From a virus, in the IMG/VR virus record IMGVR_UViG_3300043256_000338, positions 1 to 61,439 of that record: a stretch of 61,439 bases of DNA; one strand, written 5' to 3'. The notes under the pieces were generated by a model. It did no database searches, was not told where the DNA came from, and worked only from the letters and a program-made list of their open reading frames with translations. Position 1 is the stretch's first letter; every line of letters starts with the position of its first letter. Positions 13,442 through 34,255 of this stretch are shown one piece after another. The translations under genes were made by a program, and so were the position numbers.

Positions 13442-13470
13442 ACCATAGTCGCACAGGTGCGACTAGTCAA
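13442..13470 (-). promoter_or_regulatory. Promoter A with 16-bp dyad operator in the spacer
   Basis: On the minus strand a -35 TTGACT is separated by 17 bp from a -10 TATGGT. The spacer contains the perfect dyad GTCGCAC-CT-GTGCGAC (13448-13463). The same 7-2-7 element recurs at seven other intergenic sites. This is the most symmetric copy and has the best -35. The -35 overlaps the stop of the RusA gene. It drives the structured leader and the genes from 13254 onward. Confidence 0.65.
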
Positions 13471-13952
13471 CAGGGCTCTTCGAACACCTCCCGGACGAGC
13501 ACCCGCGCACCAGGCCTATCGTCCGAAGTCGCCCACCGCTTGCGCGTGACATGGTCCACGATCTGCTGGTCACCCTGGTAGACCAGCGCGAACGACCCGT
13601 GAGGCCAGTCAGCCAACACGTCCTCCAGGCCTTTCGTGAGATTCGTGAGATCTGGCTTGCTCGTCGGGAACGCCGGCGCTGCCCGCTTGAGCTCGCCCGC
13701 GAACTTGCCCGTCCGGTAGTGCGACGCCGGGCGCTCCAGCCAGTACGTGACTTCGAGTACCAGGGGCTGGCCCACCGTGAAGACCGGGAAGGGGCCGTCT
13801 AAGACCTCAGCCAGAGCCGCGGCTCGAACCCGCTTGAACCACGGGGAGGCCCGGCGGCGAGCCTTGCTCGAGCTCCGGGAGCGGTTCCAGGCCGGCTTGG
13901 CCATGGGATTCCCCAGGACTCGGAACTCAAGTTCGGTTTTTGTTCGGTTCAC
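13467..13952 (-). CDS. RusA-like Holliday junction resolvase
   Basis: Probable junction-resolving endonuclease acting on recombination or replication intermediates before packaging. The 161-aa protein has the RusA layout: FRVLGNPMAKPAWN near the start, SKPDLTNLTKGLEDVL at about 98-113 and YQGDQQIVDHVTRKRW at about 125-140. The usual DxDN is DLTN here, so one of the two expected Asp is missing, while Asp101, Asp111 and Asp128 remain. GTG 13952 restores the first beta strand, and ATG 13907 would cut it off. Frame upstream is noise. Overlaps the preceding gene by 26 bases. Confidence 0.72.
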   Translation of the reverse strand: MNRTKTELEFRVLGNPMAKPAWNRSRSSSKARRRASPWFKRVRAAALAEVLDGPFPVFTVGQPLVLEVTYWLERPASHYRTGKFAGELKRAAPAFPTSKPDLTNLTKGLEDVLADWPHGSFALVYQGDQQIVDHVTRKRWATSDDRPGARVLVREVFEEPC

Positions 13953-14454
13953 AAGTGCCCTTCGGCGCCGTGGACTCGTCTCCCGGCCACCCCTTCGTGA
14001 CGTCCCGCGGACGCCCAGCGTCGTGAACCGGAAATCCCACATCCGGACCCACAGCGTCGTCCGGGCGATGCATCGGGATCCCCGCGGTGCACCGCCGGCC
14101 CGAGTCGTCGTCCTCCGACGGCTCAGGCTCGGGCTCATCCCCATTCGACTGGAACCCGACCGCGTCCGCAGGCCCACCCTTGGATTCCTCGTCAGAACTC
14201 GGGAAGGCCCGATCAAGTAGATTTACGAATGCGAACCGATCCTGGTCGTTTGCGAACCGCAGGGCCCCGACGAACTCTTCGAGCCGATGGGAGCAGACCG
14301 CGGCGATCCGGGCCCGGAGCTGCGCCGGCGTCAGTGAGTCCTCTGGCAAGCGCCTGAGTAGCTGCTCGTGCTCCGCTTTGAGCTCCATGAGCCTGCGCAC
14401 TGCGCGGCGCGCAGCATCCGATCCCTCATGCTGGCCTGGTCTCGTTTCGTCCAT
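13927..14454 (-). CDS. Hypothetical protein, 175 aa
   Basis: Not recognised. Helical N-terminal half (AVRRLMELKAEHEQLLRRL, then ARIAAVCSHRLEEFVGALRF) and an acidic, Pro/Glu/Asp-rich, probably disordered second half. ATG 14454 is preceded by AAAGAGAGCGAAA; an alternative ATG at 14538 would add 28 poorly coding residues. Overlaps the RusA gene. Confidence 0.5.
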   Translation of the reverse strand: MDETRPGQHEGSDAARRAVRRLMELKAEHEQLLRRLPEDSLTPAQLRARIAAVCSHRLEEFVGALRFANDQDRFAFVNLLDRAFPSSDEESKGGPADAVGFQSNGDEPEPEPSEDDDSGRRCTAGIPMHRPDDAVGPDVGFPVHDAGRPRDVTKGWPGDESTAPKGTCEPNKNRT

Positions 14455-14600
14455 TTTCGCTCTCTTTCGATCTTGCCATGTTTCCGCCGCCGAGCCCCCT
14501 GTGAGCCGCCCACCCGACTGATGGCCCAGAGATGCCATCGAGCATCCATTGAGCAGGCAGAGAGCCGCTCCTGGCCACCGTGTTGGATCCTGGGGGTCGC

Positions 14601-15077
14601 TCAGATCCGTCCCGTCTGTGCATCGAGTATCTCCTGGGCTTCGTCGCACTTAGCGCACAGCGACCCCCCTGGGACCAGCCTGGACTCCACGAAACAGCTC
14701 CCACATTGCCCGAAAGGCCAGCCAGCCTTCGCCCGGGACCAATCGCAAGTATCCTCCCGAATCACTCGCCCTTGTCTCACAGACCCCGCCTTGATCGTCT
14801 TCTCTATCTCTATACAAGAGGAGCACTTACAGCTAGGGCAGGGCTGCCACGCACCACAGTGGACGCATTCCGGTGCCCCTGGAAACTTCGCACTGCAACA
14901 CCAGCAGACTGGGCACGAGAGCTGAACGAGAGCCGAGCAGACCGCTGTGGCCTCCGGCAGCGTGAGCCCTTCGATCACGCCGGGCGGCGGGAGATTAGCG
15001 ATGGCCCAGCATCGTGCTCCGGGATCGTCATTGCCAGGCAGCAGATTCAACATCGGGTGAACGGCCAGGTGAGCCAT
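14601..15077 (-). CDS. Cys-rich zinc-ribbon protein, 158 aa
   Basis: A protein with many CxxC pairs: CPVCWCC, CVHCGAWQPCPSCKCSSC and a last pair GGSLCAKCDEAQEILD. This suggests three or more zinc sites, as in small DNA- or RNA-binding zinc-ribbon proteins. ATG 15077 has GAAAGGG upstream. The gene starts 21 bp from the parS-like palindrome and is the first gene after the putative origin. Function unknown. Confidence 0.6.
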   Translation of the reverse strand: MAHLAVHPMLNLLPGNDDPGARCWAIANLPPPGVIEGLTLPEATAVCSALVQLSCPVCWCCSAKFPGAPECVHCGAWQPCPSCKCSSCIEIEKTIKAGSVRQGRVIREDTCDWSRAKAGWPFGQCGSCFVESRLVPGGSLCAKCDEAQEILDAQTGRI

Positions 15078-15097
15078 GTGAGGCCCTTTCAAAAAAA

Positions 15098-15113
15098 TGT
15101 TCCACGTGGAACA
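15098..15113. promoter_or_regulatory. parS-like ParB-binding palindrome
   Basis: TGTTCCACGTGGAACA is a perfect 16-bp palindrome and is identical to chromosomal parS sites I know from Pseudomonas, differing by one base from the Bacillus parS. It lies between the iterons and the start of the 15077 gene. No ParA and no full-length ParB is encoded here; the methyltransferase has only a ParB N-domain. Host ParB is therefore the likely ligand. Confidence 0.75.
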
Positions 15114-15140
15114 ATTGTCCGGAAAACTACGCAACTCAAA

Positions 15141-15184
15141 GTGTCGACGCCTGTCATCGTAGTGTCGACGCCCTTCGTCGACAC
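15141..15184. repeat. Iteron-like repeats, left cluster
   Basis: Three copies of GTGTCGAC: forward at 15141-15148 and 15162-15169, inverted at 15177-15184. The first two are followed by GCC. They lie 28 bp after the parS-like site. Confidence 0.65.
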
Positions 15185-15214
15185 TTACACCTAGTACCAG
15201 TAAGGACTTACGCC

Positions 15215-15239
15215 AAGTGTCATCACTGTCGACGGGGGG
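15215..15239 (+). repeat. 25-bp inverted repeat, left arm
   Basis: Starts AAGTGTCATCACTGTCGAC and ends in six G. Its exact reverse complement is at 15352-15376. The arms carry the same GTGTC and GTCGAC cores as the iterons, so they are probably strong initiator sites in opposite orientation. Confidence 0.75.
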
Positions 15240-15325
15240 TGCCCGTAAATGAGAGAATCGGCGATAAACTACGGATACAATAAGAGATAAGAGAGATGTC
15301 ATCCCTTTGGTCGATCATCGACATC

Positions 15326-15333
15326 GTCGACAC
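15326..15333 (-). repeat. Iteron-like repeat
   Basis: A single inverted copy GTCGACAC between the A/T-richer segment and the right inverted-repeat arm. Confidence 0.5.
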
Positions 15334-15351
15334 TTCTCTCAGGTACACGCG

Positions 15352-15376
15352 CCCCCCGTCGACAGTGATGACACTT
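15352..15376 (-). repeat. 25-bp inverted repeat, right arm
   Basis: Exact reverse complement of 15215-15239, 112 bases from it. Together the two arms bracket the A/T-richer segment. Confidence 0.75.
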
Positions 15377-15423
15377 GCACGTAACTCCAGTCCCCATCAC
15401 AATCAAAGTGTCGGCATCCTAGG

Positions 15424-15452
15424 GTCGACGGTGCGTCGACAGTGTCGACACT
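15424..15452. repeat. Iteron-like repeats, right cluster
   Basis: Three GTCGAC cores in 26 bases (15424-15429, 15435-15440, 15444-15449). The last forms the 12-bp palindrome AGTGTCGACACT at 15441-15452. A related AAAGTGTCGGC lies at 15406-15416. The cluster ends about 25 bases before the stop of the replication gene. Confidence 0.65.
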
Positions 15453-15477
15453 TTGGCTGGATTTTGTTAGGGATTTG

Positions 15478-17859
15478 TTAGGGTAGTGGGGCATCAGCAA
15501 TATCCGCTCCAGGATTCAGGCGAAATTTGGTGCGCGGGTCCCGGTACTGCCATTTCCGCTCATCGGTAGGGATGAGCCAGAACGTTTCGACCAGGATCTC
15601 CATGACGGGAATGATCTGGCGGACCCGGACTCTCCGAACCAGATCCCGACGGGAGAACGCCGACGTGGGGAAGCTCTTGAACGCCGCGTGGAGAGCCCTG
15701 AGCGCTTCCCGCTCGATGACCGAGTCCAGCTCCAGCCCGAAAGCCAGCCGAGCGTGCTGAACCAGCTTCGTGAACAGCGAGATAGCCCGCTCGACGTCCC
15801 GGACCTCCACGACGAAGGCAGAGCCGGGGGCGAACTCCTCGAAGGCCCTGGCAGCAGCCAGAGCCCCAGCAACGCGCGTGAGAAGCCCGTGAGCCTTGTT
15901 GTGGAACTCGACCAGGTCGTGGTTCGCCCCACCGGGCCGGAACTCCTTCTGGTGGACTCGGCGCCAGTCCAGGAACAGCGCACGGGCGTCCTGGTGGAAC
16001 TCCACCAGCCGCGGCTCGAGCGGGATCCCCTGGAGCAGGTAGTGCCTCGCCAGATCGATCCAGGGCTGTGCGTAGCCCTTAGAGGGACGCTGGACGTCCA
16101 CCCGGATGTCCTCCGGCCGGAAATCGGGAACGTTGATCATGAACCGAGCCATGAACCCAGAGTCGCGTAAGTGAGGGTTGTCAAAGAGGTAGTCGGTCGG
16201 AGCCCCCGTCTGGACGACCAGACAGATCGCGAGCTCGGGCTTCTTTATCACCCCCTGCCGGCGCTTCTTGTTCGCACGGTTGACCAGGATCGACTTGCCC
16301 GAGTAGCCGTTCATCGGAGTCGTCGTCTGCGGGGCCGCCCCGGTCACTGCCCAGAGCGGGGAGATCGCATTGTTCAAAAATATCGGCTCCCCATCGCAGA
16401 TGAACACCGAGCCACCCGAGTCCAGCAGTGATCCCTGCAGAGCAGCCTCGGTTGTGTCGGACGCAACCATCGATGACAAATCCACTGTCTTTCCTCTGTT
16501 ACGGACAAGCTCGAAATACAGGTTGCGGATAATCGTGGGGTCTGGTGTCGGTTGGCTCTTCTGGTTTGTCAGCTGTTCCTCGAGCATCTGGTGGTGGGCG
16601 ATAGCCCCCTCTTGGAGCTCTCGAGCCTGTCGTCCGGTCGTGATGTCGATGATAGGTTCGCGCACGAGGTCGACAATCTCCGATTTCCGGCCACCTGTCC
16701 GGATCAGCGAAAGGAGCCACAGCGGCGGGGGTTGAGTGAATTTCCCGTTGTCGAATCGGAGCCGCTTCGAGATCACCGCTGAGACGCCCGTCAGGTGGGC
16801 GAGCGCGAGCGTCGACTCCGGGACCTGCAGATACTCCCACGCCATGTTGAGATAGGCCGAGAAGCGGGGAGCGTCCCCGAAGACCTCCTCGATCGATATC
16901 GGGGGCCCCGCCTGCTCGTCCCGATCGAAGAACCGGATCGGCTCGAGGACGTCGTCGGGGAGAAGACTCGAGGGAGGCCGCCAGCCGGCCAGCCTGGCCT
17001 CCCGGACCACGGAGGCGATGGTCGTCCTCGAGTCGGTGTAATGCCGCGAGAACGACGACCACTGCGGCCCCTGCTCCTTCGCCGCGTACTTGTCCGGCCA
17101 GTTCTGGCTCCAGGCGTCCCACAGATCGAAGCCGTGCCTCCCCCAGCCGAGCTCGTGGATCGCGAACCCGACCCGGAGCCAGTCGTCGCGGACGATGCCC
17201 GGGATGTACCCGAGCATCTGCCGGTACTCCTCAAACGTCTCCGGCGAGTACGGACGGGCCCCGCCCGATGACGGAGGCGCTTCATGTGTGGGACCAGCCG
17301 ACGGCATCGACGCCGGCGGGACTACCCGGTTCTTGAGCCAGTCGATCAGCCATCCCGGAGCCGTCTCCGGCTTCCCCTCCCCCCAGGCGTAGATGTCGCC
17401 AGATGGGTGGACCGAGCAGGGTGCGAGGAAGTACCCGCCGTTCGACCGGATATCCACGCCGTCGGCCCCGGTCGAGAGCTTGGTCGGCGATCGGTCGTCG
17501 TACGTGTAGATATGCTGGACGCCCCGGTGGGTCTTCAGGACCGCCCCACCCAGGGGGCCGTGTTCGGCCTCAAGCGCCGCGCGGACCGCCATGCCGTCCT
17601 TGTCCGGGGTCTTGTCGAAGTCGAGCGACCAGAGCCCGGAGCCGCCTGAATCGAGCTCACCGGTGACAACTCCAATGTTCGCATCGGGTTGCTCTAGCCA
17701 CAGCCGGCGGATGTCGTCCTCGTCGTCGGTGGCGTCTTTCAGACCAGAGGAACCCTTGAGCGGTACTTTTGAACGTGGAGAGAGTCGAAATACTTGCCAT
17801 CCCAGCTTCGTGAGCTCGACCGCGCACTCGCCCAGCCCTGACAGGCCGACCTGCGCCAT
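15478..17859 (-). CDS. Prim-pol / DUF3987 replication protein
   Basis: Probable primase-polymerase with an ATPase-like module that starts phage replication. Residues about 10-175 form an archaeo-eukaryotic primase (prim-pol) domain. It has a DFDK metal-binding pair at 80-83, THRGVQHIY at about 110-118 and DIRSNGGYFLAP near 136. A PriCT-like helical region follows (LRVGFAIHELGWGRHGFDLW, about 225-290). The second half has LWLLSLIRTGGRKSEIVDLV as in DUF3987, with a P-loop-like GGRKS lacking the full Walker consensus. The 793-aa length suits such fusions. ATG 17859 has GGAAGG at good distance. It ends at the origin. Confidence 0.85.
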   Translation of the reverse strand: MAQVGLSGLGECAVELTKLGWQVFRLSPRSKVPLKGSSGLKDATDDEDDIRRLWLEQPDANIGVVTGELDSGGSGLWSLDFDKTPDKDGMAVRAALEAEHGPLGGAVLKTHRGVQHIYTYDDRSPTKLSTGADGVDIRSNGGYFLAPCSVHPSGDIYAWGEGKPETAPGWLIDWLKNRVVPPASMPSAGPTHEAPPSSGGARPYSPETFEEYRQMLGYIPGIVRDDWLRVGFAIHELGWGRHGFDLWDAWSQNWPDKYAAKEQGPQWSSFSRHYTDSRTTIASVVREARLAGWRPPSSLLPDDVLEPIRFFDRDEQAGPPISIEEVFGDAPRFSAYLNMAWEYLQVPESTLALAHLTGVSAVISKRLRFDNGKFTQPPPLWLLSLIRTGGRKSEIVDLVREPIIDITTGRQARELQEGAIAHHQMLEEQLTNQKSQPTPDPTIIRNLYFELVRNRGKTVDLSSMVASDTTEAALQGSLLDSGGSVFICDGEPIFLNNAISPLWAVTGAAPQTTTPMNGYSGKSILVNRANKKRRQGVIKKPELAICLVVQTGAPTDYLFDNPHLRDSGFMARFMINVPDFRPEDIRVDVQRPSKGYAQPWIDLARHYLLQGIPLEPRLVEFHQDARALFLDWRRVHQKEFRPGGANHDLVEFHNKAHGLLTRVAGALAAARAFEEFAPGSAFVVEVRDVERAISLFTKLVQHARLAFGLELDSVIEREALRALHAAFKSFPTSAFSRRDLVRRVRVRQIIPVMEILVETFWLIPTDERKWQYRDPRTKFRLNPGADIADAPLP

Positions 17860-17927: not shown

Positions 17928-17960
17928 AAATAGATTCCAGCAGAATAGGTGCAAGCCTAG
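17928..17960 (-). promoter_or_regulatory. Possible promoter for the replication gene
   Basis: In the 143-bp gap before the prim-pol gene the minus strand carries TTGCAC, a 16-bp spacer and TATTTG. This is a fair sigma70-like arrangement. It lacks the 7-2-7 dyad of the other promoters. Low confidence. Confidence 0.3.
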
Positions 17961-18002
17961 GACTAGTGGCAACCGTCGCTGTTGGTACACCAGGGGTAGT
18001 GG

Positions 18003-18311
18003 TTACGCCGCCACGTTGATCGTGGGCAGGGTGTCATTGATAGCGCGAGTGAACAGCGATTGATCAAGGTCAGCAGAGATGCGAGCCGGCAGCTCACCTT
18101 CGAGGGTGAAACGAAGACTGAAGTGGACCACGTCCCACACCGAAACGGCGACGCCGTCAGAACAGATCAGGAGCACTTCGTAGACGTCGCCACCGAAGCG
18201 TACGGCGAATTCTTGGCCGCTTGCGTGAGTCGCCTTGAGCCAAAGCATTCCAGGGTTCGCGTCCAGGATTTCGCGGGTTGCTTGCGCGTCGCTGGTGGTC
18301 GTCTTCGTCAT
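18003..18311 (-). CDS. Hypothetical protein, 102 aa
   Basis: Not recognised. Contains GQEFAVRFGGDVYEVLLICS and VAVSVWDVVHFSLRFTLEGE, a compact beta-type fold, and a helical N-terminus (ATREILDANP). ATG 18311 follows AAAGGGGAGCAACC. It is the first gene behind the dyad-bearing promoter near 18346-18367, so it may be an early or regulated gene. Confidence 0.55.
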   Translation of the reverse strand: MTKTTTSDAQATREILDANPGMLWLKATHASGQEFAVRFGGDVYEVLLICSDGVAVSVWDVVHFSLRFTLEGELPARISADLDQSLFTRAINDTLPTINVAA

Positions 18312-18345
18312 GGTTGCTCCCCTTTGCTTGGACACATCAAAGAGT

Positions 18346-18373
18346 ACGATGCTCCAAGGGATGCGGCCACCTA
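18346..18373 (-). promoter_or_regulatory. Promoter E with 7-2-7 dyad
   Basis: The minus strand has a dyad derivative GCCGCAT-CC-CTTGGAG (18352-18367) immediately followed by the -10-like CATCGT and then ACTC. It shares its whole 3' half with the site near 23718 (GGAG-x-ATCGTACTC). It lies 35 bases upstream of ATG 18311. Confidence 0.5.
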
Positions 18374-18377: not shown

Positions 18378-18402
18378 CGTAGTGACAATATTCGTCACTA
18401 CG
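18378..18402. promoter_or_regulatory. Operator-like dyad upstream of promoter E
   Basis: Perfect 9-bp inverted repeat CGTAGTGAC / GTCACTACG with a 7-nt spacer AATATTC. It lies just upstream of promoter E and across the end of the dockerin gene (the stop is at 18398). The A/T-rich centre and arm length are typical of a dimeric HTH protein site. Confidence 0.55.
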
Positions 18403-19108
18403 GGCAAGCAGAAGCAGCGCACCCCAATGCCACGCTCGAACCACACGCTGCCCACGGAACAGGGGGCTGAGGCCCCAGATCAAAGAGGTACGTCAGCAAG
18501 TAGATGGCGTCCGACACGTCCAGGGTGCCGTCGCCGTTGGAATCGCAGGCGTCAGCGCAGGGCTGGGGGCCAAAGAGGAGTGCCCAGTTCAACACGCCGA
18601 TAACATCCATGATGTTCACCACCCCTGACGGGACACAGTCGCCACGCACGTAGTCCGCGTGGATCTCCGTCACGCCGCCATCGACCCACAGCGTAGGAAT
18701 GACGACACCAATCCCATCCGAGACCAGATTGTCCACCGGTGGGCTTCCGAGAGCCTGGTCGCAGAACACAATCGCCCCGCCACCCTGGTAGGTCGCATTG
18801 ACCAGCACACCGCCGGCGTAGGGCGCGCCAGCGAGGTCCCAGACCGCGCCGTGAGTGAAGCCGTCCGGGAACAGGTTCACGTCCAGATAGAAGGCGGTGA
18901 GCACGTCAACGGGCGAGATAGCGGTGAGCAGCGTCAGACCAGGATCGTGGCAAACGCCAAAGCTCCAGCCGTAGACTGAGGCGCCAGCAGTATCCATGGT
19001 GAACGAGACCGCTGCGGTACCCCCGACGGGGATCGAGACGGCGTCGGCGGTGATCGTTTGGGCTCTGGCGCCAACGGCGAGCAACAGAAGGGCTAAGGCT
19101 ATCCTCAT
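18398..19108 (-). CDS. Secreted dockerin-domain protein
   Basis: A 236-aa exported protein. Signal peptide at 1-16 (MRIALALLLLAVGARA). A beta-rich domain of about 135 residues follows that resembles cohesin-like or Ig-like Ca-dependent surface domains. At about 155-215 lies a type I dockerin pair: RGDCVPSGVVNIMDVIGVLN and CDSNGDGTLDVSDAIYLLTY, each a calcium-binding loop plus helix. The first loop has lost some Asp ligands. The C-terminus is Cys-rich. ATG 19108 has GGAGG six bases upstream. Dockerins are rare in phages and this style is frequent in Planctomycetota surface proteins, so it was probably acquired from the host. Confidence 0.75.
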   Translation of the reverse strand: MRIALALLLLAVGARAQTITADAVSIPVGGTAAVSFTMDTAGASVYGWSFGVCHDPGLTLLTAISPVDVLTAFYLDVNLFPDGFTHGAVWDLAGAPYAGGVLVNATYQGGGAIVFCDQALGSPPVDNLVSDGIGVVIPTLWVDGGVTEIHADYVRGDCVPSGVVNIMDVIGVLNWALLFGPQPCADACDSNGDGTLDVSDAIYLLTYLFDLGPQPPVPWAACGSSVALGCAASACP

Positions 19109-22021: not shown

Positions 22022-22158
22022 TCTTCCTCCTCTTCGTCACGATCACCAAGCAACTCATCGGCAAACGACATATCCTCGAGCACGGCCCGCTCGCAGTCGG
22101 CACAGATCCCTCCACTGACAAGTGGGGCACTGCAAATAAAACAGACGTAGGGGCTCAT
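22018..22158 (-). CDS. Zinc-ribbon microprotein, 46 aa
   Basis: Two CxxC knuckles (VCFICSAPL and GGICADCERAV) make a compact zinc ribbon, followed by a very acidic tail. ATG 22158 overlaps the upstream stop by four bases. It probably acts as a protein or nucleic-acid binding adaptor. Confidence 0.55.
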   Translation of the reverse strand: MSPYVCFICSAPLVSGGICADCERAVLEDMSFADELLGDRDEEEEE

Positions 22159-22490
22159 TTGGCGCTCGCGTAACCGAGCAGGTGCCCGACAGAGAGCCAC
22201 TTCTTCGCAGAGAACAGCACACGTGGATGGTCAGCGCACATCCGTGCGAAGTCCTCGGCAGCCCACCCGAGCACCTCTTCCGGAATCTCGGTCTTGGCGG
22301 AGAGCGTGTGCGTCCAGACATCCCGTCCATCCGCACCCTTGTCGATCATGTCCAGGAGGTTCCCAAGAATGGACAACCGGACACCAGTGGTGACGTAGTC
22401 GTTAGCAGTATAGTTGGTGTCAAGGTTGGCGACTGCGACAGTGATGGCAATGCGGAGCGCGTTGGCAGCTCTCCAGCGGTCGATAGCCAT
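22155..22490 (-). CDS. Hypothetical protein, 111 aa
   Basis: Not recognised. Helical protein (ALRIAITVAVANLDTNYTAN, LSILGNLLDMIDKGADGRD). ATG 22490 is preceded by GGGAAGGG. It is the first gene after the terminator/promoter pair at 22539-22607. Confidence 0.55.
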   Translation of the reverse strand: MAIDRWRAANALRIAITVAVANLDTNYTANDYVTTGVRLSILGNLLDMIDKGADGRDVWTHTLSAKTEIPEEVLGWAAEDFARMCADHPRVLFSAKKWLSVGHLLGYASAK

Positions 22491-22538: not shown

Positions 22539-22567
22539 ACCATGCTCCGACGGGTGCGACCAGTCAG
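22539..22567 (-). promoter_or_regulatory. Promoter D with 7-2-7 dyad
   Basis: Minus strand: -35 CTGACT, 17-bp spacer, -10 CATGGT. The spacer carries GTCGCAC-CC-GTCGGAG (22545-22560). It lies directly downstream of an intrinsic terminator and 49 bases before ATG 22490. Confidence 0.6.
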
Positions 22568-22572: not shown

Positions 22573-22607
22573 AAAAAAGCCGGCCAGGTAGTGCCTCCCC
22601 GGCCGGC
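22573..22607 (-). terminator. Intrinsic terminator
   Basis: On the minus strand a perfect 7-bp GC stem (GCCGGCC / GGCCGGC) with a 15-nt loop is followed by six T. It would stop transcripts coming from the helicase and accessory genes above 22893. Confidence 0.75.
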
Positions 22608-22892: not shown

Positions 22893-23129
22893 CTAGTCGT
22901 AGTTGAACTTCCAACGCATCGTACCGGTCATCTCGTCGATCTCGCGAGAGAGCCCCCCACGGACAGCGCGGAGGTCTGCCAGCGTGAGCTCGATCATGGC
23001 GCCCTCGCCACCGTATTTCCGGACGATCGCCGCAAGTACCTTCAGGTGATCGATCTGAGCTTGCCCACGAAGCCGGCGACGGCCCGTCCCATCATCACGA
23101 CCCGGCGGGCCGACAGGCTCATGGACCAT
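22893..23129 (-). CDS. Hypothetical protein, 78 aa
   Basis: Not recognised. Helical protein with a basic N-terminus and HLKVLAAIVRKYGGEGAMIE, then LTLADLRAVRGGLSREIDEM. Overlaps the upstream gene by 11 bases; no clear ribosome binding site, so translation may be coupled. Confidence 0.5.
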   Translation of the reverse strand: MVHEPVGPPGRDDGTGRRRLRGQAQIDHLKVLAAIVRKYGGEGAMIELTLADLRAVRGGLSREIDEMTGTMRWKFNYD

Positions 23130-23493
23130 CGTAATCGAGGATCTTGATGAAAGATGTCAGGATGTTGACCAGCCAGGCGTCTGCTATTGCCTCAACCTCG
23201 GGACGCGGGTCGATCTGCGCACACGCGTGACGGCAGCGAGCTAGCGCATCGCCAAGCCTTTCTGTGGCGTAGTCGTTGAGTTTTCTCTCTACCATCCCCT
23301 CGAAGAGAACCTGCTCGAGGTGGGCCAGTCTATCGAGTAAAAGCTGGCTGACCGCAGCCTCTCTTAGTTCATTCTGGTCGTGGAGAACTAGTAGTGACTC
23401 AGCTTTGGCACGATTGCGAAATATCCTCATGTTCTCTTTGTGGGTAGCAATCGCATTCTTGATGTACTGGTGCGCTTTGTTTCGGTCGCTCAT
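23119..23493 (-). CDS. Hypothetical protein, 124 aa
   Basis: Not recognised. Nearly all helical and probably a coiled coil (HKENMRIFRNRAKAESLLVL, QLLLDRLAHLEQVLFEGMVE). ATG 23493 overlaps the upstream stop by four bases. Confidence 0.55.
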   Translation of the reverse strand: MSDRNKAHQYIKNAIATHKENMRIFRNRAKAESLLVLHDQNELREAAVSQLLLDRLAHLEQVLFEGMVERKLNDYATERLGDALARCRHACAQIDPRPEVEAIADAWLVNILTSFIKILDYDGP

Positions 23494-23675
23494 TCCTCTT
23501 CTCCTTCCACCGGAGGGACAACCCACCCATCAGCTCGCAGCCAGGCAATGGCCTTGTTCTGCGCCGCGAGCATGGTCAGCGACGAATCTTGGCGCTGCAG
23601 TTCAGTTCGACGCGAGATGATTCGACGTCGGATAGGGCCGTTGATATCGCGTAGGGTCATGGCGGTCTCCTTCAT
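23490..23675 (-). CDS. Hypothetical protein, 61 aa
   Basis: Not recognised. Basic helical N-terminus (DINGPIRRRIISRRTELQRQ), then NKAIAWLRADGWVVPPVEGE. ATG 23675 has GAGGAGGAAGCT directly upstream. First gene after the dyad promoter near 23712-23733. Confidence 0.55.
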   Translation of the reverse strand: MKETAMTLRDINGPIRRRIISRRTELQRQDSSLTMLAAQNKAIAWLRADGWVVPPVEGEEE

Positions 23676-23711: not shown

Positions 23712-23739
23712 ACGATACTCCGACGGTTGCGACCACTAG
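23712..23739 (-). promoter_or_regulatory. Promoter C with 7-2-7 dyad
   Basis: The minus strand has GTCGCAA-CC-GTCGGAG (23718-23733) immediately followed by the -10-like TATCGT. It sits 42 bases before ATG 23675 in a 60-bp gap and overlaps the end of the upstream gene. The -35 is poor (TCTAGT), which suggests activator dependence or a weak promoter. Confidence 0.55.
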
Positions 23740-24712: not shown

Positions 24713-26366
24713 CGGATTCAACCCGTTCTCTCTTGAAGATGGCGTCGACGACTCGGTCATACTTCCCGTCCTTCTGAATGATGATCTGCGTTGGTACCAA
24801 GAGCTCTGAGATTCGGTCCAGCGCTTCGGACACGCTGTCCGGGACTGGCAAGCCACCACGGAGTTTCCACCAGTCGTGAGCCTTCCTGAGAGCGAACCCC
24901 GTGTGCTCAAAACAAACCCAGTCATTGACTTGCTGCATGCCGCACCGGTATGACACACGCATCGAGTCTATTTTCCCTTTCTTTGAATGCCTCGAGAAGG
25001 AAACGGTTGAGCAATCGACCGTGTACTTCGGATTATCATGCACCGTGAAATCTACTGGAGCAAGCCCGTCGGCGTAGTTGGTGTTCTTCGACTCAGGGGA
25101 CTCCCGATGGAAAACGTGGCCACAGCCAGGGCATTTCACGGCCCCGAGCGAAACGATGAGCGAGCAGTCGGGGCATGCCTTTACCGGGGCCTCGCCATCG
25201 CCCTTCGCCCCGCTGTCCGTGATCTTGATGTCATTGATCGGGCCGTGCCGGAAAACGTTCTCTCCGTAGTCGAGAACCAAGCAGTTTTCCTTGCCCGGGA
25301 ACGTCCGCATTCCGCGGCCCATGATCTGCACGTAGAGCGAGGTCGACTGCGTCGGGCGCATCACAGCGAGCAGGTCGCAGCGCTGCCAGTTGAACCCGGT
25401 GGTCAGCACGCCGACGTTTACCAAACAGGTAAGGTCGCCCGCTTTCGCGTCACGGATGATCCTGCGCCGATCTTCCTTCGGTGTGGAACCGATAACCATC
25501 TCTGCGCTGATACCGGCCGCCCGAACCTGCTCGAGGATCTTGTTGGCGTGAGCGATCCCACACGCGAACACGAGCCAATGTTTCCGCTCTTCCTGGGTCG
25601 CCATCCGGATCATCTCGTTCACCGCACACCGGACGTTGTCGCCGGCGATCGCCGCGGCCTCGAGCTCACCTGGCTTGTAGTCGCCACGGGAGGATCCGAC
25701 CCCGGACGTGTCGATCGTCTCCTTGGGCAGTTTGGCGATCAGCGAGGCAAGGTAGTTGTCGTCGATCAGTTTCTTGAGGGACACGTCGTAGGCGATGTCC
25801 GTGAAGATACGCCCTTCACCCTTGTGTAGAAGACCACCCTCGAGTCGAAACGGCGTCGCCGTGTACCCGAGGATCTTCAGCTTCGGGTTCCGCTCCTTCA
25901 GCCAGGCGAGATAGCTCCGGTACCTACCCTCGCCAGACTTCGGGAGCATGTGGCACTCATCGATCAGGACCAGGTCGAAGTCCCCGAGCGCCTCCGCGGT
26001 CCGTGTGTCCGCTTCCTTGTCATCCTTTTCGAGCCTTGGCCAGACCGACTGGATCCCAGCGAAGATCACCGACGAATCAGTGTCGCGGCGCCCGATCCCG
26101 GCGGAGTAAATCCCAATCGGCGCGAGCAAGCCCCACTGGCCGACGAACTCGTTGTAGTTCTGTTCGATCAGCTCCTTGACGTGAGTCAGGATGACCACCC
26201 GCTGACAGGGCCACTGCTCGATCGTTCGGCGGACGAATTCCGCGATGATCAGCGACTTCCCACCTCCGGTCGGCACCACGAATAGCGGATTGCCAATCCG
26301 GAGCTGAAAATAGTTGAAGTGCGCCTTGATGCACGCTTCCTGATAATCACGAGGTACTAGGCCCAA
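24594..26366 (-). CDS. SF2 DEAD/DEAH-box helicase (restriction-enzyme-type fold)
   Basis: ATP-dependent DNA helicase or translocase for phage replication or recombination. From TTG 26366 (590 aa) it has a Q-like motif PRDYQEACI, Walker A PTGGGKS at about 32-38 and the DECH box at 136-139 (LIDECHM). GYTATPF (motif III), the C-terminal RecA lobe with LVNVGVLTTGFN and a QIMGRGMRTFPG arginine-finger motif VI follow. A zinc ribbon (CPDC, CPGC) comes next. TTG has AGGAAAGG upstream and limits overlap with the previous gene to 20 bases; the frame stays open to 26426. The last 40 codons overlap the next gene in another frame and look poorly conserved. Confidence 0.85.
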   Translation of the reverse strand: MGLVPRDYQEACIKAHFNYFQLRIGNPLFVVPTGGGKSLIIAEFVRRTIEQWPCQRVVILTHVKELIEQNYNEFVGQWGLLAPIGIYSAGIGRRDTDSSVIFAGIQSVWPRLEKDDKEADTRTAEALGDFDLVLIDECHMLPKSGEGRYRSYLAWLKERNPKLKILGYTATPFRLEGGLLHKGEGRIFTDIAYDVSLKKLIDDNYLASLIAKLPKETIDTSGVGSSRGDYKPGELEAAAIAGDNVRCAVNEMIRMATQEERKHWLVFACGIAHANKILEQVRAAGISAEMVIGSTPKEDRRRIIRDAKAGDLTCLVNVGVLTTGFNWQRCDLLAVMRPTQSTSLYVQIMGRGMRTFPGKENCLVLDYGENVFRHGPINDIKITDSGAKGDGEAPVKACPDCSLIVSLGAVKCPGCGHVFHRESPESKNTNYADGLAPVDFTVHDNPKYTVDCSTVSFSRHSKKGKIDSMRVSYRCGMQQVNDWVCFEHTGFALRKAHDWWKLRGGLPVPDSVSEALDRISELLVPTQIIIQKDGKYDRVVDAIFKRERVESDANQPENEEQARTTGSDRSHHQAASGHDEGTEPNVGRPW

Positions 26367-26724
26367 CGGGCAAGTCCTTTCCTTCGGCTGCCCCCGTTGT
26401 CCTCGACTCGTAGTAGTCGCGAACAATCGAAATCACGACCTCTTGCGCTTCCTTGTCGTCGGCCAGATACTCCGCGAGTGACGGAGAATCGACCGTCACA
26501 CCAGAGAACTCATGCTCCTCCACCTCGGGGAACGCCCGACGTAGAACCTGAGCCACCATCCGTTGGAGCATGGTCTTGGTAGAGCCGTAGTCGTCGCCGA
26601 CCCCGCGACTCTGCCAGACGCGCTCACCCGGAGGAAGATAGCGTACCACCACCCGATCCCCTCCGAACATCTCATCCTTCTTGGGGCTCTTCGCGGAGCT
26701 CGAGATCTTGACCTCAATCATCAC
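26347..26724 (-). CDS. Hypothetical protein, 125 aa
   Basis: Not recognised. A basic beta-type N-terminus (IEVKISSSAKSPKKDEMFGG) is followed by a helical acidic region. It sits between the two helicase genes and may be an accessory factor. Start at ATG 26724 or 26721. Confidence 0.5.
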   Translation of the reverse strand: MMIEVKISSSAKSPKKDEMFGGDRVVVRYLPPGERVWQSRGVGDDYGSTKTMLQRMVAQVLRRAFPEVEEHEFSGVTVDSPSLAEYLADDKEAQEVVISIVRDYYESRTTGAAEGKDLPVGPSTS

Positions 26725-26725: not shown

Positions 26726-27844
26726 TCATCCTCTCTGGATTGTCAGGCGCTCGCTCGCACGCGTGCAAGCAGTGTAGCGCCACCTAAGAACGTCGTACTT
26801 GGCATCATCGAAAACAAACACGTTTGACCACTCACTCCCCTGAGCCTTGTGGCAAGTCAGCGCATAAGCGAAGTCGAACAGATGCATGTTGTTCGCGTCC
26901 GCCTCGACATGAGCCTCGCGATCCGGCTGCTTCCCGAAGCCGCCCTTGTGGACCCTTATGTCCAGCAGGCGCCCGGACCAGTCGTCTTTGAGCAGACACT
27001 TGAACCCAAGGTCGATTGGAGTGCAGACGAGTACGCGGAAAATCTCTCCATTGATGACCCCTTTCCGGCGGTTGTTTTTCAGGCACACGACCCGATCGCG
27101 GTCCTTGAGATCACCAGTAAATCCCAGAATCCGGGACCGCCACTCCGCGTTGATCCGGTGACGAGCATGGTTGGTAGCGACAAGGATGACGTCCGAATCA
27201 GCAGCGCGAGCATTGTCGACGACTCGCCCCACAGTGCCCCGAACCACCCATACCCGGTCGGACGTCCAATCCTCAGCCGGAAGCTCACCGTTGCGCACAC
27301 GATATGCGCAATCGATGATTGGATTCCCGGCCGCTTGACGATGGATCTTCTCGAGCACGAAATCCGGGTTCTTCATGATCTCCGGATCGGTGCCGACCGG
27401 AGGCAGCTGGCCGTGGTCGCCGACGAACAGCACCGGCAGTCCGAGCTCAACCACGTCGTCGTGAACGACGTGGTTGATCATAGATGCCTCATCGATGATC
27501 AGGCCCGACGGGTACCTATGCAGGCCCTCCTTTGCATCGAACTCTGGGTTCCCATGCTCATCCATCCCCTTGTAGTTGTACGCGAAGGAATGGATCGTCG
27601 ACGCGGGGAGCCCTTTGCGCCTCAGTACTGAGACAGCCTTCCCGGTCGGTGCGAGGACAGACCAATTCTCGAACGTGTCATGCTCTATCAGGGCAGAAAT
27701 GAGCGTGGTCTTGCCCGTCCCAGCCAGCCCAGACATCGTCTGGCTCATCGGTGCACCACCAGGGATGGCGAGGCACCAAGCCACTATGCCATCGCGAACT
27801 TGGATCTGGTCTTCCGACAGTTCCAGGGCTTCGTCCTTACTCAT
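26726..27844 (-). CDS. SF1 helicase, RecD/Dda-like
   Basis: DNA helicase of superfamily 1. Walker A GLAGTGKT at 39-46, motif Ia APTGKA, IDEAS at 117-121 (motif II), VGDHGQLPPVG (motif III) and a C-terminal YALTCHKAQGSEW with YTACTRA at the end (motifs V-VI). The 372-aa size fits phage Dda-type helicases. ATG 27844 has GAGGAGG nine bases upstream and overlaps the nuclease stop by 8 bases. Works with the nuclease, SSB and ATPase encoded upstream. Confidence 0.88.
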   Translation of the reverse strand: MSKDEALELSEDQIQVRDGIVAWCLAIPGGAPMSQTMSGLAGTGKTTLISALIEHDTFENWSVLAPTGKAVSVLRRKGLPASTIHSFAYNYKGMDEHGNPEFDAKEGLHRYPSGLIIDEASMINHVVHDDVVELGLPVLFVGDHGQLPPVGTDPEIMKNPDFVLEKIHRQAAGNPIIDCAYRVRNGELPAEDWTSDRVWVVRGTVGRVVDNARAADSDVILVATNHARHRINAEWRSRILGFTGDLKDRDRVVCLKNNRRKGVINGEIFRVLVCTPIDLGFKCLLKDDWSGRLLDIRVHKGGFGKQPDREAHVEADANNMHLFDFAYALTCHKAQGSEWSNVFVFDDAKYDVLRWRYTACTRASERLTIQRG

Positions 27845-30715: not shown

Positions 30716-30783
30716 GGGGCCTCTTCCCTGGTTGTGGTTGCATGATTTGCAGTGGTCATTGACCGAGCTGCCAGCATTCGAGC

Positions 30784-30811
30784 AGATTACTCCGAGGAAT
30801 GCAACTAGGCT
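30784..30811 (-). promoter_or_regulatory. Promoter H with 7-2-7 dyad
   Basis: The minus strand has GTTGCAT-TC-CTCGGAG (30790-30805) followed at once by the -10-like TAATCT. Lies in the 89-bp gap before the recombination genes and overlaps the stop of the gene at 30805. Confidence 0.5.
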
Positions 30812-31227
30812 CGACGCTTGAGTCCCAACTTCTTCCGAACCCAGAAGACCGCCAGTTGGTGATTCTCGTCAGCCTCTTCGGGGGAGCTACTCGGGACCGG
30901 CGGTGGAGTGCCAACGGAACCCACGACTTGGGTCACATAGGGGGCAATCATCTCGGTGGGCATCGGGATCCAGTTCCCGTCATTGTCGACCTTCTCGAGC
31001 TCTGAGATGTCGATCGTCTTGACCCAGTTCCCGGCAACCTGGGTCTCCGCAATGACATGCGCCCCCCGCTGGGCGATCGCCCACTCGAGCATGTCGCTCT
31101 GCGGCTCATTTCGCCGATCACGGAGCGATACGAGGTACTGGATCACCTGGATGGCCAGGAAGCCGGCCGGCAAGCCCAAGGCGGACCCGAGGAAGGCAGC
31201 TAGGAGTACTTGGGAAGAGGCATCCAC
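30805..31227 (-). CDS. Membrane protein, 140 aa
   Basis: Not recognised. An N-terminal membrane segment (LLAAFLGSALGLPAGFLAIQ) is followed by a soluble domain and a Pro/Ser-rich linker before a basic C-terminus. Could be a superinfection-exclusion or signalling protein. It follows the HTH regulator by six bases and so is co-transcribed with it. Confidence 0.55.
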   Translation of the reverse strand: MDASSQVLLAAFLGSALGLPAGFLAIQVIQYLVSLRDRRNEPQSDMLEWAIAQRGAHVIAETQVAGNWVKTIDISELEKVDNDGNWIPMPTEMIAPYVTQVVGSVGTPPPVPSSSPEEADENHQLAVFWVRKKLGLKRRA

Positions 31228-31233
31228 GGTGAG

Positions 31234-31497
31234 CTATCCAGCCCTTGCCGCGGCCCACGCGGGGACGTCGTCCACAGAGACGATCGCAAGCCCGCACGCG
31301 TGGAGGATTTCCTCCACATGGCCGGAGAACGTGTTTTGCTCACCACGGAGGAATCGATAGACCGTTGACGGGGCAGCGGAAATGCCTCCGTGGTTTGCCA
31401 GGTCGTACTTGGAGACTCCGAGCTCCTCGATCCGCTCGAGGACGATGTCTCGAATCCAGAACTCGTTCAGGCGGTAGATGGTGGGGTTCTTCTTCAT
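31234..31497 (-). CDS. Small HTH regulator (Cro/CI-like)
   Basis: An 87-aa protein with a helix-turn-helix-like core: ERIEELGVSKYDLANHGGIS, then APSTVYRFLRGEQNTFSGHV. This matches the XRE/Cro-CI layout of a short DNA-binding dimer. ATG 31497 lies 20 bases below a dyad site at 31518-31533 that matches seven others in the genome. It is therefore the best candidate for the phage repressor or master regulator and probably controls itself. No separate Cro partner is seen. Confidence 0.7.
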   Translation of the reverse strand: MKKNPTIYRLNEFWIRDIVLERIEELGVSKYDLANHGGISAAPSTVYRFLRGEQNTFSGHVEEILHACGLAIVSVDDVPAWAAARAG

Positions 31498-31511
31498 GCT
31501 CGGGAGTCTAC

Positions 31512-31539
31512 CCCGTGCTCCTACCCGTGCAACTGATTA
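31512..31539 (-). promoter_or_regulatory. Promoter/operator G before the HTH regulator
   Basis: The minus strand has GTTGCAC-GG-GTAGGAG (31518-31533) then CACGGG where a -10 would be. Only 20 bases separate the dyad from the ATG, so a dimer bound here could block initiation or ribosome loading. The -10 is poor. Confidence 0.5.
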
Positions 31540-31869
31540 TGCCTCGTACGTTCCCTCGACGCCCCGCGCATCGCGGATGCAGGTACGACGATTCAAGTCT
31601 TCCAGAGCGCTGAACAGATGGGAAATGGCTCTTCCGTTTTCGCCACACGCAAACTTGCCATTGCACGCCGTCTGGAAGAACTCGAGCCTCTGCTTCGCAG
31701 CCCGAATCACGGTCTCGATGAAGCAGCCGTTCGGCTTCTTCTGGTCTTCGCCACGTCCCAGCGGACCATTCTGCCAGACAATCGTGAGCCCGGTCGCCTG
31801 TGCCAGACCACTGGCCGGATTCCCGTCCTTGTCGAGCATGTTCTCGACGTCTAGAGGTTGATCGTTCAT
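31537..31869 (-). CDS. Hypothetical protein, WQNGP type
   Basis: A 110-aa protein of a common phage type: TIVWQNGPLGRGEDQKKPNG, then FIETVIRAAKQRLEFFQTA and NGKFACGENGRAISHLFSAL, ending DLNRRTCIRDARGVEGT. Widespread in tailed phages of actinobacteria and others; no function known. Confidence 0.65.
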   Translation of the reverse strand: MNDQPLDVENMLDKDGNPASGLAQATGLTIVWQNGPLGRGEDQKKPNGCFIETVIRAAKQRLEFFQTACNGKFACGENGRAISHLFSALEDLNRRTCIRDARGVEGTYEA

Positions 31870-31886
31870 CCATCCATCCTTTCCAG

Positions 31887-32222
31887 TCAGAGTACCGGTG
31901 GGAGTCCCGCGACCATCCGAATCCCCATGGCCGCGATCGACAGACCACCACGAAGAACTGCCAAGATCCGCCGATCGAGGTCATCGGCATTCTCTACCGA
32001 AACGATCCCGGCCTTGATCGCGATGTTGTCCCGCTCCGCCAACAGTGCGAGGTCGTACCCCGGTTCGCCTACCAGGGTGGCCAGATGGTCAATACGCTCG
32101 GCTGTGTAGTCCGCGACAGCCTGCAGGTCGGCGATTAGGAAGATGCCCAGATCGCCAGACTCCAGGACGAGTTGATCCACGATCCCCGTGCCAAGCACAG
32201 CCGCGGCTTCCTGGCGGTTCAT
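31887..32222 (-). CDS. Hypothetical protein, 111 aa
   Basis: Not recognised. Helical and hydrophobic but without a clear membrane segment (FLIADLQAVADYTAERIDHL, then ILAVLRGGLSIAAMGIRMVA). Overlaps the upstream gene by four bases. Confidence 0.5.
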   Translation of the reverse strand: MNRQEAAAVLGTGIVDQLVLESGDLGIFLIADLQAVADYTAERIDHLATLVGEPGYDLALLAERDNIAIKAGIVSVENADDLDRRILAVLRGGLSIAAMGIRMVAGLPPVL

Positions 32223-32608
32223 CGAGCGTCCCTCCCGAGTAGGTACTTCCGGAGCCCCTCACCAAAGAGACGTGAGCGCTCCCGGAGCGACTCTGCGACG
32301 CCCGGGGTGATCTCGGCGGCCGCGACGCGGGCGACAATCCCAGACTCGCAGAGCTGGAACACCGGCGGCCAGAGCAGGTACGTATCAGCCGGCATCGGAT
32401 CCGAGTTGAATGCGACGAAGAAGACCCCGGCGATATCCGACGCCGCCGGCTGGGCCCCAAGGGGGAGCGCGGAGATGCCCTGGGATACGTCCACACTGAC
32501 TCCGGCCACCGCTGCCCGTAGTGCTGGGAGCAGCGCTTCCTCGCGAGCCACGGGGCCCGCGAGGCACCCCACAAGCAGCACCAGGAGGGCGAGTGAGTGC
32601 GCCCTCAT
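32219..32608 (-). CDS. Lipoprotein-like protein, 129 aa
   Basis: The N-terminus MRAHSLALLVLLVGCLAG is a signal peptide with a lipobox-like LVGC, so it may be a lipid-anchored protein. The mature part is helical at the end (ESLRERSRLFGEGLRKYLLG). Candidate outer-membrane spanin component or exclusion lipoprotein. ATG 32608 overlaps the upstream stop by four bases. Confidence 0.6.
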   Translation of the reverse strand: MRAHSLALLVLLVGCLAGPVAREEALLPALRAAVAGVSVDVSQGISALPLGAQPAASDIAGVFFVAFNSDPMPADTYLLWPPVFQLCESGIVARVAAAEITPGVAESLRERSRLFGEGLRKYLLGRDAR

Positions 32609-33354
32609 TCGCCCGGGCTCCCGTGGTAGACCTTCGGACCGTCGCCAAGAGCCGTCCGCAGATGCGCAATCGTCTGGTTGACCGCCGAGAACCGCGCCAT
32701 CTCGATGCCGTCCGCCGATGGCACGAATCGGATGCACTCCTCGTCGAGGTCCAGGAACAGGCCAACATCGACCGTGGCCTCGAAGCGGAACCCCGGGTTG
32801 ATGAACACTGGTGTGTTCACGACGAAGGACTCCGGGACATCCTCCGCTTGCTGGACCTTCGCCTCGACCGATTTGCCCAGCGATTCCTTGCCATGCTGGA
32901 CCGTGCTCGCGCCGTCCGATCGACGCTGGAAGTTGATCTTCCGGAGCGAGTTGATGACGCCTTGATTCTGGAGCTCGAGATTGAACTGCAGGCAGCGGAT
33001 CGCCTGGGCCGGAGAATACCCGCGATCGCCGAGTTGCATGAGCTTGACGAATCGACTCGAGTACTGGAAATCCATCGACATGAGCTCCCAGCGGTCCTCG
33101 ATATCGAGCACCAGATAAACGCCGGAGCAATCCACGTACAGCTCACAGCTATCAAAGACGGATGTAGCGTACTCGACAAAGCTCTCGAAACTGACCAGAG
33201 ATCCGTTGATCGGTTTCCTAGATCGCGCGTGTTCTTCGAACCTTCCGTTGTGCGCTACGAACACCTTCTCTGGCATCGAATCGCACGTCACGATCTTCGG
33301 AACGTTTGCGACCGCAGCGAATTCTCGCAGCTTGACCAGGAACTCAGCCAGCAT
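32605..33354 (-). CDS. DUF2303-like protein (tentative)
   Basis: A 249-aa mixed alpha/beta protein. SFESFVEYATSVFDSCELYV and SMDFQYSSRFVKLMQLGD recall the DUF2303 phage family, whose role is unknown but whose gene sits near recombination or repressor genes. Overlaps its neighbours by four and 11 bases. Confidence 0.5.
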   Translation of the reverse strand: MLAEFLVKLREFAAVANVPKIVTCDSMPEKVFVAHNGRFEEHARSRKPINGSLVSFESFVEYATSVFDSCELYVDCSGVYLVLDIEDRWELMSMDFQYSSRFVKLMQLGDRGYSPAQAIRCLQFNLELQNQGVINSLRKINFQRRSDGASTVQHGKESLGKSVEAKVQQAEDVPESFVVNTPVFINPGFRFEATVDVGLFLDLDEECIRFVPSADGIEMARFSAVNQTIAHLRTALGDGPKVYHGSPGE

Positions 33355-33751
33355 TGGTCACCTCCACATCGCTGGTGCTGTCCGGCTCGGAGACATCGCG
33401 CGGCTCTGTGAGATCCAGCGTCCGCTGGTTGATATCCTCCGGAGACAGCTCATTGAAAAACAGCCCACCAGGGGTCGCCGCCATGTTGTAAGTCTGACTC
33501 TTGCGAGTCGGGATGGACTCCTTGATCTCGCAGTTCACGTCCACGGAGCTCAGGTCGCCCTCCTCCGTGGCCTTCGGCTCGATGACTACCGTCATCGAGA
33601 CCTTGCGAGCAGCGCTCACGCCGGGGCGGTCCCGGCAGTCCTCCTCCGCCCGGCGGAGCGCCTGCTCGAACGCGACGGCTACCCTTCCGGCGTCGATCCT
33701 GCAGATCGCGTCCAGAGACAGCTTCTCGAGCCCCACGGGACCCCCTTTCAT
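33344..33751 (-). CDS. Hypothetical protein, 135 aa
   Basis: Not recognised. ATG 33751 overlaps the TGA of a 30-codon leader ORF (ATGA). Beta-rich core (KVSMTVVIEPKATEEGDLSS) and an acidic Ser/Asp/Glu tail (EPRDVSEPDSTSDVEV). The intrinsic terminator at 33761-33795 lies 10 bases upstream, inside the leader, so expression needs readthrough. Confidence 0.55.
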   Translation of the reverse strand: MKGGPVGLEKLSLDAICRIDAGRVAVAFEQALRRAEEDCRDRPGVSAARKVSMTVVIEPKATEEGDLSSVDVNCEIKESIPTRKSQTYNMAATPGGLFFNELSPEDINQRTLDLTEPRDVSEPDSTSDVEVTNAG

Positions 33752-33840
33752 CGGCTTGGGAAAAAAGCCCCGGGTGCCGACAAGCAACCCGGGGCCGGAG
33801 GTGCCGTCACGTTGGTTCGGGTGGGCTTGAATGCAGTCAT
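33748..33840 (-). CDS. Leader ORF, 30 aa
   Basis: A 31-codon ORF (ATG 33840, TGA at 33748-33750) that spans an intrinsic terminator and ends by overlapping the next ATG. Its peptide is Pro/Ala/Thr-rich (FKPTRTNVTAPPAPG). No Shine-Dalgarno is visible. Coupling of its stop to the following start is the main evidence; it may be chance. Confidence 0.3.
   Translation of the reverse strand: MTAFKPTRTNVTAPPAPGCLSAPGAFFPSR
33761..33795 (-). terminator. Intrinsic terminator / attenuator
   Basis: On the minus strand the perfect 9-bp stem GCCCCGGGT / ACCCGGGGC with an 11-nt loop is followed by six T. It lies between promoter B (33885-33906) and the ATG at 33751, so the short leader transcript would end here unless terminator folding is prevented. 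Confidence 0.75.
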
Positions 33841-33884
33841 GGTCAAAGTCGAAGGCGAGACGCGCGGCACGGGGGCACGGTAGC

Positions 33885-33912
33885 CATATGGTCGCACGCG
33901 TGCAACTAGATC
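33885..33912 (-). promoter_or_regulatory. Promoter B with 7-2-7 dyad
   Basis: The minus strand has GTTGCAC-GC-GTGCGAC (33891-33906) directly followed by the -10-like CATATG. This is the second most symmetric copy of the dyad. The -35 is poor (GGATCT). Lies in the 173-bp gap before the 33751 gene. Confidence 0.6.
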
Positions 33913-33924
33913 CCCAAGCGGGGG

Positions 33925-34212
33925 TCAGGAATTGAGAGCGATCGCAAACCGCCCATCACGAGCTCGGATGTACCTAATCTGTCCGCTCTCGTACGACTTG
34001 GCGATCTCGGGGCGGATCTGGATCAGGGCCATCAGCACGTTCTTGGCCGTATCGAGATCCCTGAACAGCAAGACAGAATCGGCCTGCGACCAGTCCAGCC
34101 CCAAGTGCACGACACTCCGGAACTTGTCGTAGCCCGACAGGACCAAGAGATCACCGGTGTGGAAGAGTGCCTCGGAGCTAACGAGGCGTGCCAGAGGAAG
34201 AAGGTCTTGCAT
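33925..34212 (-). CDS. Hypothetical protein, 95 aa
   Basis: Not recognised. ATG 34212 has GGGAG five bases upstream. Contains VSSEALFHTGDLLVLSGYDK, FRDLDTAKNVLMALIQIRPE and a beta end GRFAIALNS. It is the first gene of the early transcription unit, behind promoter F. Confidence 0.55.
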   Translation of the reverse strand: MQDLLPLARLVSSEALFHTGDLLVLSGYDKFRSVVHLGLDWSQADSVLLFRDLDTAKNVLMALIQIRPEIAKSYESGQIRYIRARDGRFAIALNS

Positions 34213-34226
34213 AACGACTCCCATCG

Positions 34227-34255
34227 TTAGAGGTCGCACCATTGCAACCATCCAA
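34227..34255 (-). promoter_or_regulatory. Promoter F with 7-2-7 dyad
   Basis: Minus strand: -35 TTGGAT, 17-bp spacer holding GTTGCAA-TG-GTGCGAC (34233-34248), then CTCTAA at the -10. Drives the early genes starting at 34212 and lies just below the hairpin that ends the tail operon. Confidence 0.55.

Follow-up and report, generated by a model that had tools for sequence, protein, structure and literature searches.

The IMG/VR virus record IMGVR_UViG_3300043256_000338, analysed over its full length of 61,439 nucleotides (the window), harbours within its non-structural gene block nine copies of a 20-bp element, each of which is located in an intergenic gap upstream of a minus-strand gene. As positions 1-127 and 61313-61439 are identical (an end overlap of 127 bp) and the portal open reading frame (ORF) spans the joined ends, the record looks complete and circular, corresponding to an entire genome of about 61.3 kb. 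Judged by its related TerL, portal, MuF-like, head and tail genes, the phage is an uncultured YuA-like siphophage with relatives among the Mesyanzhinovviridae. Its TerL (1499-3064) shares 50-56% identity with that of the cultured YuA-like phages YuA (55% over 481 aa), PaMx11, RDJL3 and Mallos and 60-67% with that of several short metagenomic contigs; the MuF-like and tail genes are 31-40% identical to those of YuA. Nearly all genes are carried by the minus strand. Along the direction of transcription the head/tail block comes first (61 to 34.3 kb) and the non-structural block second; the latter contains a putative helix-turn-helix (HTH) gene and genes for Sak4, an SSB-like protein, a Cas4-type exonuclease, a Dda-like helicase, a second helicase, a primase-polymerase and RusA. 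Beyond it lie small genes of no assigned function, a ParB_N-methyltransferase gene, TerS and TerL. No integrase or lysogeny module turned up among the protein families searched in the window.

A 20-bp motif in nine intergenic gaps

An earlier note on this DNA had described eight 16-mers on the minus strand, all of which we find where it placed them (13448, 18352, 22545, 23718, 30790, 31518, 33891 and 34233) and all of which are, as it claimed, intergenic. The conserved element is longer than these 16-mers and reads TRGTYGCAN-NN-NTSSGAS-YA. Among the flanking positions thereby added, the T and R on the left are present in seven and eight of the eight original sites, respectively, and the Y and A on the right in eight and seven, while G, G, C and A of the left arm as well as T, G and A of the right arm are invariant. 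A 20-bp weight matrix derived from the eight original sites, with which both strands were scanned, recovers all of them and in addition a ninth one at 17946-17965 (site 8 in Table 1). At a score of at least 18 it yields 11 strand matches corresponding to nine distinct places, compared to 0.1 expected from shuffles. If each site in turn is omitted from the matrix, only 0-2 other places in the window score as high as the omitted one. A scan of this kind had been proposed by the earlier note as a check, and its matches are not spread through coding DNA: all nine places fall into gaps, which make up about 6-13% of the genome. A blind search, to which the sites were not supplied and in which every 20-mer of every gap served as a seed, returns the site motif as its top motif (8 gap versus 4 coding matches, p=1e-7), whereas the best p value reached in three Markov-shuffled control genomes is only 5e-4. 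Clearly, the site set is real and far beyond chance, with one motif recurring preferentially between genes as in a dispersed operator set.

The sites are of two kinds. The 7-2-7 dyad which the earlier note had ascribed to all of them holds for 13448, where it is perfect over 9-2-9, for 33891 and, in part, for 34233. The other five original sites (18352, 22545, 23718, 30790 and 31518) retain the left arm, yet their right arm diverges to TSGGAGYA or a variant thereof. Three of these GGAG-armed sites, 18352, 22545 and 23718, belong to a common 45-nt family of 69-78% identity, and 18352 and 23718 align across 78 bp reaching into the leader. The remaining six sites have only the 20-bp motif in common, their flanks being unrelated. 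A second dyad, TTGACCAG-N5-CTGGTCAA, is found at 13411-13431 just downstream of site 13448.

Table 1. Motif sites, candidate regulator gene and hairpins of the non-structural block (all on the minus strand)
Feature	Position	Strand	Sequence	Flush hexamer	Remarks
Site 1	34231..34250	-	TGGTTGCAATGGTGCGACCT		18 bp upstream of the start of a 95-aa gene (33925-34212); near-palindromic
Site 2	33889..33908	-	TAGTTGCACGCGTGCGACCA		upstream of gene 33344-33736 and of the unit that extends to 31537; dyad almost perfect
Site 3	31516..31535	-	CAGTTGCACGGGTAGGAGCA		upstream of the HTH gene
Site 4	30788..30807	-	TAGTTGCATTCCTCGGAGTA	TAATCT	upstream of the recombination unit
Site 5	23716..23735	-	TGGTCGCAACCGTCGGAGTA	TATCGT	upstream of genes 23490-23675 and 23119-23493
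Site 6	22543..22562	-	TGGTCGCACCCGTCGGAGCA	CATGGT	upstream of gene 22155-22490
Site 7	18350..18369	-	TGGCCGCATCCCTTGGAGCA	CATCGT	upstream of gene 18003-18311; weakest of the eight original sites
Site 8 (new)	17946..17965	-	TAGTCCTAGGCTTGCACCTA	TATTCT	upstream of the primase-polymerase gene 15478-17859
Site 9	13446..13465	-	TAGTCGCACCTGTGCGACTA	TATGGT	perfect 9-2-9 dyad within TTGACT-17-TATGGT
Possible tenth site	26752..26771	-	TGCTTGCACGCGTGCGAGCG		score 16.4; no -10
87-aa putative HTH regulator	31234..31497	-			candidate binder, whose own promoter region contains site 3
Terminator-like hairpin, then UUUUUU	22579..22607	-			-23.2 kcal/mol, z -2.8; just upstream of site 6
Strong GC hairpin	34273..34299	-			-25.3 kcal/mol, z -4.1; between tail gene and site 1
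Strong hairpin	18378..18402	-			-18.5 kcal/mol, z -4.3; just upstream of site 7

Promoter-like context of the sites

Every site precedes a minus-strand gene, with about 20-193 bp to the next start, these leader lengths being approximate since gene starts were taken from a simple caller. The sites divide the non-structural block into about nine units, among them the recombination unit following site 4 (DUF7173-like protein, Sak4, SSB-like protein, Cas4 exonuclease, Dda-like helicase). The head/tail block is devoid of any site. The description of the set as phage-wide is accordingly not tenable, the sites being confined to 13.4-34.3 kb. The possible tenth site, a weaker one, is contained in the 3' end of the gene for the Dda-like helicase, and 30 bp separate it from the next gene (26347-26721).

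The claim that a -10-like hexamer directly follows each site applies to six of the nine sites (Table 1) and fails for 31518, 33891 and 34233. At 31518 (site 3) a displaced TAGACT lies 7 bp past the flush position; because it ends only 7 bp before the ATG of the HTH gene, the HTH transcript starting from this site may be leaderless. Averaged over all nine sites, the -10 score has its maximum at the flush hexamer and there amounts to 1.2, which is 3.7 standard deviations above the profile mean of -6.0 (standard deviation 1.9). As evidence beyond that supplied by the motif itself, the sixth hexamer position is T in six of nine sites (about p=0.003, weaker if the three related sites count once). 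As to the -35 boxes said to lie 17 bp away at three sites, only TTGACT-17-TATGGT at 13448 is convincing and passes a sigma-70 scan; the other two do not pass it. A plain sigma-70 scan reveals an overall promoter count no higher than in shuffles. The element is centred some 20 bp upstream of where transcription is likely to start. The hairpins ahead of 22545, 34233 and 18352 likely represent transcript ends followed by new starts.

Comparison with other phages and known systems

Applied to 129 other loci (1.6 Mb, largely from related phages), the matrix gives three matches scoring at least 16, one of which reaches at least 18 (best score 18.2). Since nine places score at least 18 here while these 1.6 Mb are nearly empty, the motif set is specific to this phage. 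When single proteins (Cas4 exonuclease, primase, HTH and tail proteins) served as queries, nothing beyond the identical population came back; scans with TerL and tail alignments yielded relatives, none of which carries the regulon of this region or its motif. One contig (L007) is 100% identical over 12,249 bp and contributes no variation. Several individual matches were dismissed. A degenerate-motif match in L008 is a chance occurrence inside a 910-aa ORF of a phage with 37% GC, another one in L014 lies inside a small gene, a pair of matrix matches in PaMx11 falls into a stretch annotated as coding in relatives, and the palindromes TRGTYGCACNNGTGCRACYA in ten other viral contigs occur singly in each of these contigs, which are not close relatives. 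The same palindrome is seen once per contig as TAGTTGCACCGGTGCAACTA in L061, L066 and L070 and as TGGTCGCACTTGTGCGACTA in L067 and L069; L066 and L070 also encode Sak4 homologues. Two other TerL relatives contain a palindrome, TGATCGTACCCGTACGATTA, of the same 9-2-9 geometry (L035, 10183-10202; L046, 10792-10811).

In its layout the set resembles several known systems. YuA (NC_010116), which by TerL belongs to the same broad group, possesses five dispersed intergenic 28-bp repeats annotated as “putative sigma70 promoter requiring phage-encoded cofactor”, besides further similar copies which are unannotated. Like the present sites they are oriented, promoter-like and placed upstream of non-structural genes. 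The YuA repeat (7718-7758, 10496, 22635, 29054 and 31094) is, however, a direct repeat, TTTACTTCTTC-N12-TATACTTC, with a period of 23 bp and without a dyad, and its sequence is unrelated to the 7-2-7/9-2-9 inverted repeat described here; none of the sites of this phage shows the YuA-type direct repeat CTTTACTTCTTCGGA-N6-CACTATAC. PaMx11 has a dispersed gap motif of its own around GGGGGCTTGCCTTGTGCT (20603, 26322, 39125, 42054 and 44087), which is likewise unlike the present one. In P1 c1 and the lambdoid Cro/CI systems, the operator overlaps the -35/-10 region and a small HTH protein is autoregulated, which is reminiscent of the arrangement proposed here. Lambdoid operators, though, are arrayed in tandem at two promoters, whereas here single sites stand at nine gene groups, the binder is only a candidate and no lysogeny module or integrase turned up in the families searched. 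Among the operators and stoperators of cluster A mycobacteriophages, those of L5 are asymmetric 13-bp sites, more than twenty in number, oriented with transcription (PMC9283540) and bound by a 183-aa monomer. What they would have in common with the present set is that one repressor is served by many dispersed sites, which occupy promoters and short intergenic stretches and follow the direction of transcription (PMC9283540), but the nine sites described here comprise 20 bp, two of them are near-perfect dyads and one is reversed. No member of the cluster A repressor family appears among the window proteins scanned, although no search was aimed at it. This is a known kind of system with a new motif: its layout is like that of the YuA, PaMx11 and L5 elements and its sequence like none of them.

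Interpretation of the site set

We give about even chances to the reading that the nine sites are dispersed operators in early/middle promoters which are bound by one dimeric regulator, most likely a repressor. A dimeric phage-encoded HTH protein would bind to the dyad and occlude RNA polymerase between -35 and -10, whereby early/middle (replication and recombination) transcription would be shut off or set in its level, that of the regulator's own gene included. Binding would then be strong at the perfect or near-perfect dyads (13448 and 33891) and weaker or graded at the sites with a GGAG arm. A dimer centred near -20 occupies what is sterically a repressor position. We prefer a repressor because a dimer bound at this centre would interfere with polymerase and because operators for such a dimer agree with the dyads and with the site at 17948, which is reversed and still flush with its -10. 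Site 8 is reversed compared to the other asymmetric sites (it scores 18.6 on the plus strand) and nevertheless keeps a good -10, TATTCT; a dimer binding to a dyad would be expected to tolerate such a reversal, an oriented promoter element would not. Support for operators also comes from the strong hairpins ahead of three sites, which suggest transcript boundaries, and from the site in the promoter of the putative regulator gene itself, which points to a phage factor. The most likely binder, and the leading candidate, is the 87-aa product of 31234-31497. The core of what the earlier note had proposed, a set of sites serving one regulator, has good support, and the sites probably lie within promoters.

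A number of observations weigh against operators of this kind. Good dyads are lacking at five of the eight original sites, and the GGAG arm of these five invariably faces the -10, a hint that the element may be an oriented one. In part, the -10 seen in the flush phase is made up of the terminal YA of the motif itself. Most sites are without a -35, so that the promoters may not fire unaided. None of the relatives found in the above scans has the 13-34 kb block. The 87-aa protein matches PHROG 1373 (“transcriptional regulator”) weakly (E=5e-4) and Pfam HTH_31 below cut-off (E=0.15; 12.8 bits versus 27 needed); no XRE/Cro-like HTH domain is found in it above the curated cut-off, and its single-sequence AlphaFold model is unusable (pLDDT 49).

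Some of these features would be accounted for by a regulator-dependent promoter, i.e. by a phage activator or RNA polymerase cofactor which needs the motif to start middle-gene transcription. The absence of a -35 at most sites despite a constant phase to the -10, the uniform side of the GGAG arm and the five annotated repeats of the TerL relative YuA are all in its favour. Against it stands that binding centred near -20 as a rule obstructs polymerase; activators of the MerR type are an exception, but the spacer at 13448 has the normal length of 17 bp. The reversal of site 8 and the different, dyad-free nature of the YuA repeat likewise disagree with it, and we regard this explanation as less likely. 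A bolder version, which strikes us as unlikely, holds that YuA-like phages as a group drive their replication region by dispersed promoter elements which differ between lineages and are read only in the presence of a phage-encoded factor. In this phage, such an element would have been converted into an inverted-repeat site for a regulator, phase-locked to the -10, with one small protein replacing the -35 and switching the whole block. It is quite unlikely that a host transcription factor binds the sites and that the state of the host thereby controls early phage genes. There is a precedent in CtrA, whose predicted sites cluster in promoters of Alphaproteobacteria phages and were confirmed by electrophoretic mobility shift assays and reporters (PMC9437464), and the single palindromes in unrelated phage contigs would agree with a host factor. 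CtrA boxes, too, are scattered over the promoters of phages and serve a single regulator (PMC9437464), yet they are concentrated in terminal repeats or gap regions, are bound by a host protein and have a motif unrelated to the present one. Moreover, looking for the palindrome in open papers gave no match, and one site would govern the phage's own HTH gene. LexA was considered as binder as well; no paper on the planctomycete motif was found in the literature.

Two further explanations dispense with transcriptional control by a common binder. If promoter-leader cassettes had been duplicated recently, the likeness of the sites would not reflect selection. The 45-nt family and the 78-bp alignment described above are what such duplication would leave behind, but the unrelated flanks of the other six sites render it very unlikely. 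A role in replication, partition or packaging is highly improbable. The sites do lie in the replication block of a genome which also has a canonical parS and a clustered AGTGTCGAC array; these are, however, a different and separately located element, and one motif at the head of each gene group, shortly before the starts and mostly adjoining a -10-like hexamer, speaks for transcription. Middle transcription in this phage group is little understood, and dispersed operators would amount to a compact control circuit for a whole block. Should YuA, PaMx11 and the present phage each rely on a different dispersed element for the same task, a comparison would reveal how such circuits are replaced in evolution.

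Further features of the genome

The parS lies in a non-coding gap at 15098-15113 as a perfect palindrome of the chromosomal type, TGTTCCACGTGGAACA, followed by a T-run. It is the only match to TGTTNCACGTGNAACA within two mismatches in the window (0.11 expected). The neighbouring stretch of 313 bp (15140-15452), which closely follows the primase gene, holds AGTGTCGAC or a one-mismatch variant eleven times, some of the copies forming the palindrome AGTGTCGACACT. This array holds six of the eight exact copies of AGTGTCGAC in the genome and is a candidate origin, centromere or multi-operator. The ParB_N-methyltransferase gene (3589-4971) encodes a ParB N-terminal domain fused to an N6/N4 DNA methyltransferase. 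The ORF at 18398-19108 encodes a signal-peptide protein with dockerin-like repeats (weak match to NCBIfam dockerin_GC, E=0.037), a protein type known from Planctomycetota which may hint at the host.

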